Below, piece by piece: positions 14,342 through 22,470 of a DNA stretch of 64,000 nt. The notes under the pieces were generated by a model. That model had not been told where the DNA came from and searched no databases. It worked only from the letters and a program-made list of their open reading frames with translations. Location of the stretch: NCBI GenBank assembly GCA_905182065.1, contig CAJIZN010000001.1:744001-808000 (forward strand). Direction: 5' to 3'. The translations under genes and the position numbers were made by a program. The DNA is from Candidatus Marisimplicoccus framensis (lineage in GTDB: Bacteria; Bacteroidota; Bacteroidia; Flavobacteriales; Flavobacteriaceae). Within the stretch, counting starts at the first letter, position 1. Every line of letters starts with the position of its first letter.

Positions 14342-14349
14342 AGTCTAAC

Positions 14350-14400
14350 AGAGGAATGATTTGACTGATTGCAACCTCTAAAAAAAATTGCTAAAGCAGT
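14350..14400 (+). promoter_or_regulatory. SAM-II-type riboswitch upstream of metK
   Basis: The leader folds as a classical H-type pseudoknot. P1 pairs AGAGG (14350-14354) with CCTCT (14375-14379). The loop contains TGATTTGACTGATTGCAA, which matches the SAM-II loop pattern GATTTnAnnGnATTGCAA. An A/T-rich linker follows, then GCTAAAG. P2 pairs ACTG (14364-14367) with CAGT (14397-14400). SAM-II aptamers are known to bind S-adenosylmethionine and repress methionine genes in proteobacteria and some Bacteroidetes. The element ends about 48 bases before the metK ATG, and no terminator stem is visible between. Control is therefore probably at translation or through 5' accessibility. Confidence 0.82.
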
Positions 14401-14448
14401 ATTTCTTTTACTCGCAATCAATCTTATTATTTCTCACAAAACAATTTT

Positions 14449-17936: not shown

Positions 17937-18365
17937 ATGGCAGTACACTTAGATAGGGTTAATGACAAATATTTATTTGAGTTAACTAATGAAAATGGAC
18001 ATCAAGTTTTTTTGGACAGAAAATATTCTCCTGATTATGATGTTAAAGGAGTAAGCCCAATGGAGCTTTTATTGATGGGTGTTGCAGGATGTAGCAGTAT
18101 AGATATTATATCTATTTTAGAAAAACAAAAATTGAATCCTATTTCTTATAAAATGGAAGTTGAGGGTGAAAGAGAGTCAACTCCTGGTGAACCATATAAA
18201 AAAATTCACGTAAGTCTTTATGTTGAAGGAGATATACCAGGCGAAAAGATAATACGTGCAGCAGCATTAAGTTTTGATAAGTATTGCTCGGTTTCAAAAA
18301 ATTTAGAGAAGTCCACTTCTATTGAACATTCTATTTATCTAAATGGTTCAATAATCAAAAAATAG
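17937..18365 (+). CDS. OsmC family protein
   Basis: OsmC/Ohr-fold protein of 142 residues, cytosolic. Family members reduce organic hydroperoxides with two cysteines or have unknown roles. LMGVAGCSSIDIISIL contains one conserved Cys on the central helix, and FDKYCSVSKNLEKSTSIEHSIYL contains the second. Both redox cysteines are present. DYDVKGVSPMELLLMGVAGC is the standard core. It follows metX by three bases and is probably the last gene of the metK operon, before a new promoter at 18375. A link to sulfur metabolism is possible but not shown. Confidence 0.88.
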   Translation: MAVHLDRVNDKYLFELTNENGHQVFLDRKYSPDYDVKGVSPMELLLMGVAGCSSIDIISILEKQKLNPISYKMEVEGERESTPGEPYKKIHVSLYVEGDIPGEKIIRAAALSFDKYCSVSKNLEKSTSIEHSIYLNGSIIKK

Positions 18366-18374
18366 ACTAAAAAC

Positions 18375-18405
18375 TTTGATTTTATCTGTACCTATTATAC
18401 TTTTG
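18375..18405 (+). promoter_or_regulatory. promoter of the Phe/Tyr biosynthesis operon
   Basis: TTTG at 18375-18378, a 19-base spacer and TACTTTTG at 18398-18405: an essentially perfect Bacteroidota promoter (TTTG-N19-TAnnTTTG). The expected +1 is about 18410-18412, one to three bases before the leader-peptide ATG at 18413. Confidence 0.75.
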
Positions 18406-18412
18406 ATGAATA

Positions 18413-18475
18413 ATGACAAATAATTTTAATTTTTTTTATAACTATTACTTCTTCTTAAATCAGAAGACAGGGTAA
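18413..18475 (+). CDS. Phe/Tyr-rich attenuator leader peptide
   Basis: A 20-codon reading frame, MTNNFNFFYNYYFFLNQKTG, then TAA. Eight of twenty residues are aromatic (Phe 5, 7, 8, 13, 14; Tyr 9, 11, 12), in front of an operon making exactly these two amino acids. The last Phe pair (18449-18454) lies on the 5' arm of the first leader hairpin, and the stop codon lies just behind region 2, as in trp- and phe-type attenuators. The promoter places transcription start almost on the ATG, so the message is probably leaderless. No homologous peptide can be recognised; the call rests on composition, position and RNA pairing. Confidence 0.85.
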   Translation: MTNNFNFFYNYYFFLNQKTG

Positions 18476-18512
18476 CTATGTTATAAAAAAAATAAAATAT
18501 ACTAGTCCTGTC
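18450..18512 (+). promoter_or_regulatory. attenuator: competing 1:2 and 2:3 hairpins
   Basis: Region 1 TCTTCT (18450-18455) pairs with AGAAGA (18462-18467), closing a six-base loop. Region 2 GACAGGGT (18466-18473) can instead pair with region 3 GTCCTGTC (18505-18512): six Watson-Crick pairs plus two G-U. Pairing 2:3 consumes the 5' arm of the terminator. A ribosome waiting at the Tyr or last Phe codons would cover region 1 and free region 2, allowing read-through. A ribosome reaching the stop would cover region 2 and allow termination. Confidence 0.8.
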
Positions 18513-18531
18513 AAATCAGGACTTTTTTTTT
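18504..18531 (+). terminator. intrinsic terminator of the Phe/Tyr attenuator
   Basis: The stem AGTCCTG (18504-18510) pairs with CAGGACT (18517-18523) around the loop TCAAAT, followed by an uninterrupted T-run to 18531. It ends two bases before the pheA ATG at 18534, so it can only serve as a conditional stop for the downstream operon. Confidence 0.9.
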
Positions 18532-18533
18532 AT

Positions 18534-19346
18534 ATGAAAGTATCAATTCAAGGAATTAGAGGATCATTTCACCATATGGTTGCAAATCAATATTTTGATT
18601 CATTTGAATTAAATGAATGTTCAACTTTTGAAAGTCTTGTAAAATCTGTAGTTAATAATGAATCAGATTATGGAATAATGGCTATTGAAAATTCAATTGC
18701 AGGCTCAATACTACCTAATTATGCTCTTATAGACGAATATAATCTTTCAATTACAGGAGAATATAGTTTAAATATTGATCACAATTTAATGTGTTTTCCA
18801 AACCAAAAAATTACTGATATTAATGAAGTTCACTCTCATCCAATGGCTTTGCTTCAATGTTCTAAATTCTTTAGTAATTATCCACACATCAAATTAATAG
18901 AAAGTCAGGACACTGCTTTGTATGCAAAAAATATAAGAGATAATGAGATGTTAGGTGTAGGAGCAATTGCGAGTTTAGATGCATTAGAAATATATAATTT
19001 ACAAATCTTAGAGTCTTCTATCCAAACTATTAAAAACAATAAGACTCGATTTGTAATTCTTGAAAAGAATCACAAAAATATAAATGATTATGATAAGGCT
19101 GCTATTAAATTTATTCTTGATCATAAAAGAGGAAGTTTAGCCACTGTATTAAATATAATGAGTGATTGTAGTCTTAATCTAACTAAGATTCAATCTTTAC
19201 CTGTCGTAAAAACTCCAGGTAAATATTCTTTTTTTGTCGACATCACTTTTAAATCTATTGAAAATTACCAAAAGGCAATAAAAATTATCGAATTAATGGC
19301 TCAAGAATTTAAAATTCTGGGAGAGTATAAATATCAAAGATCATGA
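18534..19346 (+). CDS. pheA: prephenate dehydratase
   Basis: Converts prephenate to phenylpyruvate, committing to phenylalanine. It has 270 residues. The catalytic domain begins IQGIRGSFHH; YGIMAIENSIAGSILPNYALI and the later NNKTRFVIL contain the Thr-Arg-Phe active-site motif (TRF). The C-terminal ACT-like part has HKRGSLATVLNIMSDCSLNLTKIQSLPV, expected to bind phenylalanine for feedback inhibition. The ATG at 18534 follows the attenuator T-run directly. No Shine-Dalgarno is present. Its stop overlaps the tyrA start by four bases. No chorismate mutase domain is fused here; that activity sits in the third gene. Confidence 0.95.
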   Translation: MKVSIQGIRGSFHHMVANQYFDSFELNECSTFESLVKSVVNNESDYGIMAIENSIAGSILPNYALIDEYNLSITGEYSLNIDHNLMCFPNQKITDINEVHSHPMALLQCSKFFSNYPHIKLIESQDTALYAKNIRDNEMLGVGAIASLDALEIYNLQILESSIQTIKNNKTRFVILEKNHKNINDYDKAAIKFILDHKRGSLATVLNIMSDCSLNLTKIQSLPVVKTPGKYSFFVDITFKSIENYQKAIKIIELMAQEFKILGEYKYQRS

Positions 19347-20191
19347 AAGTTGGCATAATAGGTTTAGGGTTAATAGGGGGGTCAATTTCTTTAAAATTAA
19401 AAGAAGTTAACAATGGAATTACTATCTATGGTTTTGATAAAAACAATCAGTCGCTTGATTTCTCTCTGAGTAAACAAATTATCGATAAGAAGTTGGATCT
19501 TGTATCATTATTAGATTTTGATTATTTATTTCTAGCAATACCTGTTGAATCAATTAAAAGCCAACTAGCTAGTATTTTAGATAAAATATCTGAAAAAACT
19601 TTAGTCATTGATTTTGGGTCAACTAAATATCAAATTTGTAATTCAGTCAGTAATCATAAAAAACGAGGAAACTTTTTAGCTGCTCACCCTATAGCTGGTA
19701 CTGAATTTTCAGGTCCGATTGCTGCAAAAAAAGATTTATTTGATAACAAGGTTATGATATTGTGTGAAACTGAAAAAACAGACTCTTCTCTGCTTTCAGT
19801 AGCAATTGAAATGTTTAAAAGTTTAGGGATGAATATTAAGACAATGGATGCAATTGAACATGATAAACATATTGCTTATGTATCTCATTTGTCTCATATT
19901 TCTTCTTTCATGTTAGGTAAAACAGTAATGGATAAGGAGGACGACGATCAGACAATTTATGATATGGCAGGAAGTGGATTTGAATCAACAGTTAGGTTAG
20001 CTAAAAGTTCTCCTGAAATGTGGTCTTCAATTTTTATTGAAAACAAAAAAAATATTATTGAATCTCTTGATGAATACATGTTAAATATTAATAATTTTAA
20101 AAAATTAATAGAAACTAGTGATCAAGAGAACCTTAACACTGAGATGAAAAAAATTAATGGTATTAAAGAAATTTTAAAAGGAATTAACTAA
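19343..20191 (+). CDS. tyrA: prephenate dehydrogenase
   Basis: Oxidative decarboxylation of prephenate to 4-hydroxyphenylpyruvate with NAD(P)+, the tyrosine branch. It has 282 residues. The Rossmann motif GIIGLGLIGGSISLKL is at 4-19. VIDFGSTK, AAHPIAGTEFSGP (catalytic His region) and HDKHIAYVSHLSHISSFML are hallmark segments; GSGFESTVRLAKSSPEMW also fits. No ACT domain is visible, so regulation is likely transcriptional, through the shared attenuator. It overlaps pheA by four bases and is followed six bases later by the DAHP synthase gene. Confidence 0.95.
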   Translation: MKVGIIGLGLIGGSISLKLKEVNNGITIYGFDKNNQSLDFSLSKQIIDKKLDLVSLLDFDYLFLAIPVESIKSQLASILDKISEKTLVIDFGSTKYQICNSVSNHKKRGNFLAAHPIAGTEFSGPIAAKKDLFDNKVMILCETEKTDSSLLSVAIEMFKSLGMNIKTMDAIEHDKHIAYVSHLSHISSFMLGKTVMDKEDDDQTIYDMAGSGFESTVRLAKSSPEMWSSIFIENKKNIIESLDEYMLNINNFKKLIETSDQENLNTEMKKINGIKEILKGIN

Positions 20192-20197
20192 AATATT

Positions 20198-21280
20198 ATG
20201 GAAAACAAAAAGGAATTTAGGAATTGGCTAGACAAAATGAGTTTAGATCATCCACTTGTTATAGCGGGCCCATGTAGTGCAGAGACTGAAGAACAAGTTC
20301 TAAAAATCGCTCATGAGTTGAAAGATACTGATGTAAGTGCATATAGAGCAGGTATATGGAAACCAAGAACTAGACCAGGAATGTTTGAAGGTGTTGGTGC
20401 AATAGGATTAAATTGGTTAGAAAGGGTCAAAAAAGAAACTGGCTTATTAATAGCTACAGAAGTTGCAAATTCTGTTCATGTAGATCTAGCATTAAAACAT
20501 AATGTGGATATTTTATGGATTGGAGCTAGATCGACTGTAAGTCCATTTATTGTTCAAGAAATTGCAGATGCCTTAAAGGGTACTGATAAGATAGTTTTAA
20601 TAAAAAATCCTGTTAATCCTGATTTGTCTCTTTGGATGGGTGGGCTTGAAAGAATCTATTCAGCAGATATCAAAAATTTAGGAGTTATTCATAGAGGTTT
20701 CTCTTCATATGATAAATCTAAATATAGAAATAACCCTGAATGGCAAATTGCTGTTGAATTTCAAAATAATTTCCCAGATATTCCTCTGATTTGTGATCCT
20801 TCCCATATTGCAGGTAAAAGAGATTTAATATATGATTTAAGTCAAACATCACTTGACCTAAATTATGATGGTTTAATGATTGAATCACATTGGGACCCAG
20901 ATAATGCTTGGAGTGATGCTGCTCAACAGGTAACACCTAAACGTTTAATTCAGATAATGAAAGACCTTAAAATAAGAGAGAAGACTTCTGATGGAGAAGA
21001 TTATCAAAATCAATTAAATAACTTAAGATCTCAAATTGATGTTGCGGATCAAAACTTATTGACTACTCTAGGTAAAAGAATGAAAGTTGCTAAAGATATA
21101 GGTAAACTAAAGTCAGATAATAATGTAGCAATACTTCAAAATAAGAGATGGAATGAGATTTTAGGAAAAATGATATTAGATGGAGAAGATCATGGATTAA
21201 GTGAGGAATTTATTCTTAGATTTTTTAAAGCAATTCACCAAGAATCTATTAATAACCAAAAGAAAATATTAAATAAATAA
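20198..21280 (+). CDS. bifunctional DAHP synthase / type II chorismate mutase
   Basis: Fusion of the first shikimate-pathway enzyme with chorismate mutase, 360 residues. About residues 1-265 are the 3-deoxy-7-phosphoheptulonate synthase: VIAGPCSAETEEQV, YRAGIWKPRTRPGMFEGVG, LWIGARSTVSPF, VLIKNPVNPD, ICDPSHIAGKR and IESHWDP. About 270-360 is an AroQ-type helical mutase: LNNLRSQIDVADQNLLTTLGKRMKVAKDIGKLK with the conserved Arg and Lys. This fusion order is characteristic of Bacteroidota. Placing it after pheA and tyrA lets one attenuator control entry to and both exits from prephenate. Confidence 0.95.
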   Translation: MENKKEFRNWLDKMSLDHPLVIAGPCSAETEEQVLKIAHELKDTDVSAYRAGIWKPRTRPGMFEGVGAIGLNWLERVKKETGLLIATEVANSVHVDLALKHNVDILWIGARSTVSPFIVQEIADALKGTDKIVLIKNPVNPDLSLWMGGLERIYSADIKNLGVIHRGFSSYDKSKYRNNPEWQIAVEFQNNFPDIPLICDPSHIAGKRDLIYDLSQTSLDLNYDGLMIESHWDPDNAWSDAAQQVTPKRLIQIMKDLKIREKTSDGEDYQNQLNNLRSQIDVADQNLLTTLGKRMKVAKDIGKLKSDNNVAILQNKRWNEILGKMILDGEDHGLSEEFILRFFKAIHQESINNQKKILNK

Positions 21281-21288
21281 GATAAAAA

Positions 21289-22470
21289 ATGTTATCAGAT
21301 AAAATTAACTCGTTACCAATTTCTCAAACTGTTGCAATGACTGCTAAGGCCCATGATTTAAAAAATCAAGGCGTTGATGTAATAACTTTAAGTGCTGGTG
21401 AACCGGACTTTGATATACCAGATTATATTAAGCAAGCAGCAATTGATGCTATTAATCAAAATTATCATAAATATTCACCTGTTGATGGATTTTTAGATCT
21501 TAAAAAAGCTATTTGTAAAAAATTTAAAAGAGATAATAATCTTGATTATGACACTAATCAAATTGTTGTCTCTACTGGAGCAAAACAGTCTATAGCTAAT
21601 GTTTGTATGTCTTTAATAAACAAAGGTGATGAAGTTGTAATTCCAACTCCTTATTGGGTAAGTTACAGTGCTATGGTATCACTTGCAGATGGAATACCAG
21701 TATTTGTTCACCCTAGTGAAGATGGAAATTATAAAGTAACAGCTGAACAGCTTGAATCTGCAATTACAGAAAAAACAAAAATGATAATGCTTAATTCACC
21801 AAATAATCCAAGTGGTTCGGTTTTTAGTGAGGAAGAATATCTGGAATTTTCAAAAGTATTATTAAAATACCCTAATATAATAGTGGTCTCAGATGAAATA
21901 TATGAACATATAAATTATGGTTCTAAAAGTATAAGTTTTGCAAGTTTACCAGGAATGTATGAAAGAACTGTTACTGTTAATGGAATATCTAAAGCTTTTG
22001 CAATGACTGGTTGGAGAATAGGTTATTTAGCAGCTCCAAAAATACTAGCTAAAGCGTGTAATAAAATGCAAGGTCAAATTACTAGTGGAGCTAATTGTAT
22101 TGCCCAGAGAGCAGCAATTACTGCATTAGAAGAGTCCCCAGAAAGAATAAAATATATGGTTGATGAATTCAAAATCAGAAGAGATTTAATAATTGATCTT
22201 GTTAATCAGGTTAATGGTTTTAAAGTTAAGCAACCACCAGAGGGAGCTTTCTATATTTTTCCTGAGGTATCCGAATTATTTGGAAAAACATTCAAAGGTC
22301 AAACAGTTAATAATGCAAATGATTTATCATTGCTAATTTTAGAGAAGGCTTATGTTGCAACTGTCCCTGGTGATGCTTTTGGGTATCCAAATTGTATAAG
22401 AATTTCCTATTCAGCATCTAGAGAACAAATTGAGGAAGCGATTAGGAGGATTAAAGACCTTTTATCTTGA
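21289..22470 (+). CDS. class I PLP aminotransferase (aspartate/aromatic type)
   Basis: Fold-type I aminotransferase of 393 residues. TLSAGEPDFDIPDYIKQAA, PTPYWVSYSAMV, LNSPNNPSGSVF, VVSDEIYEHINYG, VNGISKAFAMTGWRIGYLAAP (PLP Lys) and the C-terminal RISYSASREQIEEA place it in the aspartate aminotransferase Ib group. Within the Phe/Tyr operon it probably transaminates phenylpyruvate and 4-hydroxyphenylpyruvate to the finished amino acids, possibly also oxaloacetate. It starts eight bases after the DAHP synthase. Its stop overlaps the rsmG start (TTGA). Confidence 0.92.
   Translation: MLSDKINSLPISQTVAMTAKAHDLKNQGVDVITLSAGEPDFDIPDYIKQAAIDAINQNYHKYSPVDGFLDLKKAICKKFKRDNNLDYDTNQIVVSTGAKQSIANVCMSLINKGDEVVIPTPYWVSYSAMVSLADGIPVFVHPSEDGNYKVTAEQLESAITEKTKMIMLNSPNNPSGSVFSEEEYLEFSKVLLKYPNIIVVSDEIYEHINYGSKSISFASLPGMYERTVTVNGISKAFAMTGWRIGYLAAPKILAKACNKMQGQITSGANCIAQRAAITALEESPERIKYMVDEFKIRRDLIIDLVNQVNGFKVKQPPEGAFYIFPEVSELFGKTFKGQTVNNANDLSLLILEKAYVATVPGDAFGYPNCIRISYSASREQIEEAIRRIKDLLS

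Follow-up and report, generated by a model that had tools for sequence, protein, structure and literature searches.

The pheA attenuator of Escherichia coli (pheL; the Phe leader of Rfam) combines an aromatic-rich leader with alternative 2:3 and 3:4 hairpins in the control of prephenate dehydratase, with Phe as its only cue and a Shine-Dalgarno start, and textbook attenuators take a single amino acid as cue. To our knowledge, Bacteroidota ribosomes initiate without Shine-Dalgarno sequences, and the coupling of ribosome and polymerase has been little studied in this phylum. A 2010 terminator survey described leader-peptide systems as shown only in Proteobacteria and Actinobacteria and itself added Firmicutes (PMC2965389), and the transcriptome of Bacteroides thetaiotaomicron was reported to include short ORFs resembling attenuation leaders (PMC7366714). 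For Flavobacterium psychrophilum, a 2021 paper presented strong clues for leader-peptide attenuation 5' of amino-acid operons, along with a structured pheA 5' element that was conserved in other Flavobacteriaceae genera and had no Rfam hit (PMC9723704). In Sinorhizobium meliloti, the trpL leader ORF sits at the extreme 5' end of its transcript, which starts with the ATG, and attenuation there is ribosome-dependent (PMC7298713).

Here we examine the leader 5' of pheA in the window, by which we mean the whole 64-kb stretch of DNA analysed. It comes from a genome of 1.23 Mb (two contigs, 87.6% complete); the named record nearest to it in pheA (93% identical), a marine MAG entitled 'Cryomorphaceae bacterium MED-G11', is placed by NCBI in Flavobacteriales. 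The pheA leader is a real and strongly conserved device of a known kind, and we regard it as highly probable that it is a classic ribosome-mediated transcription attenuator, kinetic in its decision, which senses charged tRNA-Phe and tRNA-Tyr jointly and governs the pheA-tyrA-DAHP synthase/chorismate mutase-aminotransferase operon. It shares with the E. coli attenuator the aromatic-rich leader, the 2:3 and 3:4 hairpins and the control of prephenate dehydratase, but differs in its cue of Phe and Tyr (Trp too in relatives), a departure from the single-amino-acid textbook cases, and in an operon that adds tyrA and DAHP synthase. Its leader ORF, predicted to lie at the 5' end of the transcript, and its probable dependence on the ribosome resemble S. 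meliloti trpL, whereas trpL has Trp as its cue, belongs to the Alphaproteobacteria and has an experimental 5' end, that of the window being predicted (PMC7298713). The F. psychrophilum element concerns the same gene and the same family as the window's attenuator; the main text of that paper goes without the leader sequence, cue, pairing scheme and spread beyond the family that are given here (PMC9723704). Searches of the open-licence PMC literature gave no account of a Phe/Tyr/Trp cue, of a spacing rule or of class-wide spread, though these may have been described elsewhere. Two features may be new, namely the near-leaderless start in the window's genus and, in many relatives, a pan-aromatic cue. 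For Bacteroidota, the pheA leader offers a well-supported example of classic attenuation that lends itself readily to testing.

Architecture of the pheA leader

The leader ORF lies between a putative promoter of the Bacteroidota type and an intrinsic terminator, directly 5' of pheA (Table 1), and on a reading of the sequence 8 of its 20 codons are for Phe or Tyr, the product amino acids of the operon. An earlier note on this DNA had described the leader, the order of the four downstream genes, and the 2:3 and 3:4 pairings with the T-run; leader and pairings are present as it gave them, and domain matches bear out the gene order. The terminator stem (AGTCCTG with CAGGACT, around the loop TCAAAT and followed by eight T) begins 28 nt 3' of the leader stop codon. 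Two terminator-like sites, which are this hairpin on one strand and on the other, occur in the 1-kb region, where shuffles have a mean of 0.2.

Table 1. Positions in the window of the pheA leader, its regulatory features and the operon
Feature	Position	Strand	Remarks
Putative -33 promoter element TTTG	18375..18378	+	19 nt 5' of -7 box; from sequence
Putative -7 promoter box TACTTTTG (TAnnTTTG)	18398..18405	+	7 nt 5' of leader ATG
Leader ORF MTNNFNFFYNYYFFLNQKTG*	18413..18475	+	ATG 18413, TAA 18473-18475; 20 codons, 5 Phe and 3 Tyr
Control zone, codons 5-14 (5 Phe, 3 Tyr, 2 Asn)	18425..18454	+	Simulated stalls, P(2:3) 0.91-0.96
Region 1	18445..18455	+	Pairs with 18462-18467; extended form also with 18471-18475
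Region 2	18462..18475	+	Antiterminator 5' arm 18466-18473, touching leader stop codon
Region 3	18504..18512	+	Terminator 5' arm 18504-18510; antiterminator 3' arm 18505-18512
Intrinsic terminator: region 4 (18517-18523) and T-run (18524-18531)	18517..18531	+	
pheA, prephenate dehydratase	18534..19346	+	Pfam PF00800, E 1e-53
tyrA, prephenate dehydrogenase	19343..20191	+	NF006307 above cut-off; PF02153, PF20463
DAHP synthase fused to chorismate mutase	20198..21280	+	PF00793 and PF01817
Class I/II aminotransferase	21289..22470	+	PF00155

As pheA begins about 10 nt beyond the terminator stem in the window, the hairpin could shade its start codon, and the leader might then control translation of pheA by start codon masking and not transcription. 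We consider this extremely improbable: the eight T lie outside the stem, and the distance from terminator to pheA runs from 6 to 105 nt among relatives, so that masking of the start codon is not the common feature.

The minimum-energy fold of 18413-18540 consists of a long 1:2 hairpin and the terminator (-30.2 kcal/mol; shuffle mean -14.2, z -5.5, 0/200 shuffles as low). The 1:2 helix had been drawn as 18450-18455 with 18462-18467 and had been taken to exclude 2:3. Those pairs exist, but as drawn they overlap 2:3 by only 2 nt, and in the fold of 18440-18515 a 1:2 of four pairs stands beside a 2:3 of seven; the two become exclusive because of an extension, 18445-18449 with 18471-18475, which the minimum-energy fold contains. 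When regions 1 and 4 are removed, 2:3 forms at -10.8 kcal/mol, with 1/200 shuffles as low.

Two observations concern the window at large. By a strict hairpin-plus-T-run test, it holds one intrinsic terminator per strand, that of the + strand being the pheA attenuator, and its other genes may end by other means. The Rfam matches within it number three, a SAM-II riboswitch and two tRNAs, none of them at the pheA leader; the riboswitch (RF01726, 79.6 bits) is at 14345-14404, directly 5' of metK-metY-metX-osmC.

Conservation among relatives

Of the 149 genomes in the first set of relatives, 105 (counting that of the window) gave a pheA, and the DNA upstream of it was read in every case. An aromatic-rich leader ORF and an intrinsic terminator occur together at 84 of these 105 loci. 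The pair was not seen at 21 loci: seven (L102-L108) make up one family with a far more distant pheA, five (L088, L090, L109-L111) a family of 0.6-Mb genomes, and two (L041, L101) are cut by contig ends. Among the remainder (L034, L061, L068, L081, L087, L089, L099), the script overlooked a fitting leader at L034 and at L099, and L087 has a leader and, by the criteria used, no terminator. In a class-wide sample, where the element was sought only beside pheA, a pheA of this kind is present in 57 of 197 genomes; 54 of these loci (omitting the window's own, one already in the first set, and G266) and three named loci form a second set of 57, mostly class-wide sample, 35 of which have leader and terminator. 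Two doubtful rows, L173 (which looks spurious, p 0.695) and L085 (long start), were retained in the counts.

Conservation in relatives had been set as a test in the earlier note, and leader and pairing are indeed kept while the bases change. The same note called a whole attenuator noteworthy in this phylum; given these counts, the hisG and trpE counterparts described below and the pheA element named in the 2021 paper, it is not exceptional there.

Phe codons occur in all 84 leaders of the first set, Tyr codons in 83 and Trp codons in 34. Over the 1497 leader residues before region 2, Phe accounts for 28.1%, Tyr for 18.4%, Trp for 2.3% and Leu for 2.1%; since Trp has a frequency near that of Leu and the sequences are related, its selection as a cue is no more than suggested.

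The hairpin might instead be the ordinary terminator of metK-metY-metX-osmC, the same-strand genes directly upstream (osmC ends at 18365), and the aromatic ORF a by-product of T-rich sequence. We judge this very unlikely, even though gene groups of the same strand flank the hairpin and the stretch from osmC to pheA showed no further terminator. A strict leader test (an ATG ORF of 12-35 codons, at least seven of them Phe, Tyr or Trp) was passed by 82 of the 102 first-set loci with 250 nt upstream, whereas the reverse strand passed in 3/102 and dinucleotide shuffles in 5.0%; in the second set 36 of 57 passed, against one on the reverse strand and 3.6% of shuffles.

Covariation of the antiterminator

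As judged from the sequences, the antiterminator 2:3 covaries between genomes. The terminator arm differs by lineage (AGTCCTG, AGTCTCGAT, AGTCCCGT, ATCCCGCT, AAGCCTTGAT and others), and region 2, which is coding in many relatives, changes along with it. Paired with the leader end, a genome's own region 3 has a mean of -11.8 kcal/mol, compared with -7.7 for region 3 from other genomes. The 2:3 pairing beats 95% of shuffled leader ends in 74 of 84 loci of the first set and 27 of 35 of the second; with foreign region 3 as control, the own value is reached in at most 5% in only 43 of 84 loci.

A MAFFT alignment (A1, 62 sequences) was not used for pair counts, since region 2 was out of register in it and the window's genus stood one column off; an anchored placement with permutation controls was used instead, in which 117 of 119 loci gave 86 distinct rows. 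Over eight positions, 84.3% of cells pair (permuted mean 73.4%, maximum 76.0% in 200 permutations of the 86 rows), and positions 4 and 5 are both Watson-Crick in 91.9% (permuted mean 47.5%, maximum 56.8% in 300 permutations of the 86 rows); position 7 pairs in only 44 of 86 rows. A plain terminator of the upstream genes would need no such covariation of the 2:3 helix. The count of cells changed on both sides (121, against a permuted mean of 107.9 and a maximum of 130) does not separate own from permuted partners and was dropped as evidence because it does not discriminate.

Codon spacing and simulated stalling

Measured from its first nucleotide, the last aromatic codon lies 11-17 nt before the region 2 core in 75 of 84 leaders, with a mode of 14 (36/84), and the stop codon falls anywhere from -8 to +32 nt relative to that core. 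A ribosome with that codon in its A site is expected to cover about 12 nt past the codon's first base; region 2 thus starts where the ribosome ends, the geometry needed if the ribosome is to act by stalling at the last aromatic codons. That this spacing is held also argues against a hairpin that merely ends the upstream gene group.

For the stall simulation, an assumed ribosome footprint was made unavailable for pairing and the RNA was folded as far as the terminator loop. Codons 1-4 of the window's leader give a P(2:3) of at most 0.29; the values are the high ones of Table 1 from the first to the last Phe, 0.59 at codon 15 and 0.00 from codon 16 to the stop. With the spacing, this agrees with the earlier proposal that stalling frees region 2. 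With nine footprint sizes the outcome for the window was similar, apart from the zone's margins; at F5, P(2:3) drops to 0.3 when the 3' reach is shortest. Across the 84 leaders, a stall at the last aromatic codon gives a mean P(2:3) of 0.78 and stalls further upstream give 0.77-0.91; the mean then drops to 0.31, 0.06 and 0.00 at one, two and three codons beyond the last aromatic one and is 0.03 at the stop. Every aromatic codon is effective as a stall place in 72 of 84 leaders. In the simulation, stalls at Asn or other codons lying between aromatic ones work just as well, so that specificity would be set by which codons are present.

Without a ribosome, P(2:3) is 0.00 in the window; over the 84 leaders it has a mean of 0.51 and is below 0.5 in 35 and below 0.2 in 25, so that termination by default is not general. 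A 1:2 state in the absence of a ribosome, part of the trp/phe logic that had been read from the window, is seen in the window itself and is weak in many relatives. The no-ribosome mean would also suit a trans-acting factor or a ligand-binding RNA that picks 2:3 or 3:4, with the leader peptide secondary, as 2:3 and the terminator could make a switch on their own. We give this reading very little credence: a ligand or protein needs neither the dominance of aromatic codons in the leader nor their conserved distance to region 2, and a scan with Rfam release 15 gave no leader family at or above the gathering score at the pheA leader. For the stalled ribosome, our preferred reading, inclusion of the complete terminator lowers the equilibrium P(2:3) in the window to at most 0.30, so that the decision for antitermination must be kinetic.

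The placement of region 1 is better than in codon-order shuffles in 72 of 84 leaders. The 1:2 pairing is 0.678 for the own sequences, 0.661 after synonymous codon permutation (own higher in 54 of 84) and 0.498 after codon-order shuffling; the last is the stronger contrast, and selection on codon choice for 1:2 is weakly indicated.

Putative promoter and predicted transcript start

Upstream of the putative -7 box (Table 1) stands a TTTG that we take to be the -33 element, at a spacing to the -7 box that is likewise our assumption. A scan for sigma-70-type sites was uninformative (5 sites against 5.9 expected). All 23 loci of the window's genus have a strict TAnnTTTG box 6-9 nt 5' of the leader ATG (shuffle expectation 0.3), and none of the 23 has one before the ATG of pheA itself; a promoter box belonging to the leader again goes against the hairpin as an ordinary terminator of the genes before it. 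In F. psychrophilum, the -7 box spans -12 to -5 (PMC9723704), from which a 5' UTR of 2-5 nt is predicted for the genus, and one of about 3 nt for the window, with +1 at about 18410. As 87% of F. johnsoniae transcripts have leaders longer than 10 nt (PMC6847099), a 5' UTR this short would be unusual; a near-leaderless start has a precedent in S. meliloti trpL, whose transcript begins with the ATG (PMC7298713). In other genera, a strict box was found in 32 of 96 loci, just 5 of them with the box 4-14 nt from the leader ATG, and the 5' UTR is longer or less clear.

Proposed mechanism and related leaders

In the mechanism that we propose, RNA polymerase would start about 3 nt 5' of the leader ATG and a ribosome would load on the leader without a Shine-Dalgarno sequence. 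When Phe or Tyr is scarce, the ribosome would stall within codons 5-14 and break the long 1:2 hairpin, leaving region 2 free to form 2:3 before region 4 is made, with read-through into pheA. When both are plentiful, the ribosome would reach codon 16 or beyond and cover region 2, 3:4 would form, and transcription would end near 18531; if there is no translation, 1:2 would form and termination would follow by default. An attenuator needs the first ribosome near the polymerase within the first ~100 nt, and such leaders would thus be a natural assay of coupling in Bacteroidota.

A wider reading, to which we would give slightly less than an even chance, is that of a class-wide attenuator for the whole aromatic family, with Phe and Tyr nearly everywhere and Trp in many leaders, all inside the simulated stall zone, in keeping with an operon that includes DAHP synthase. 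In this genus it would be joined to near-leaderless loading (the leader ORF 2-5 nt from the 5' end), which would couple ribosome and polymerase without Shine-Dalgarno signals.

In the window's family, hisG is present in 32 of 41 genomes, and a His-run leader with a terminator was seen at 30 of 30 loci (L183-L212); trpE has a match in 41 of 41 genomes, with a Trp-run leader at 29 of 30 loci (L213-L242), 28 of them with a terminator. Inspection of 30 ilvD loci showed nothing similar, and hisG had no match in the window's own genome. The trpE leader of that genome, MILIKTNWWWNFEK, is accompanied by a terminator (L234, from G000:C1:107411 onward), and its ATG comes 4 nt after the end of a TATATTTG box, so that transcription may begin at the ATG itself. 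Among the 29 trpE leaders, 17 have a strict -7 box 4-14 nt 5' of the leader ATG, against a shuffle expectation of 0.3, a hint that near-leaderless leader ORFs are not confined to the pheA operon.
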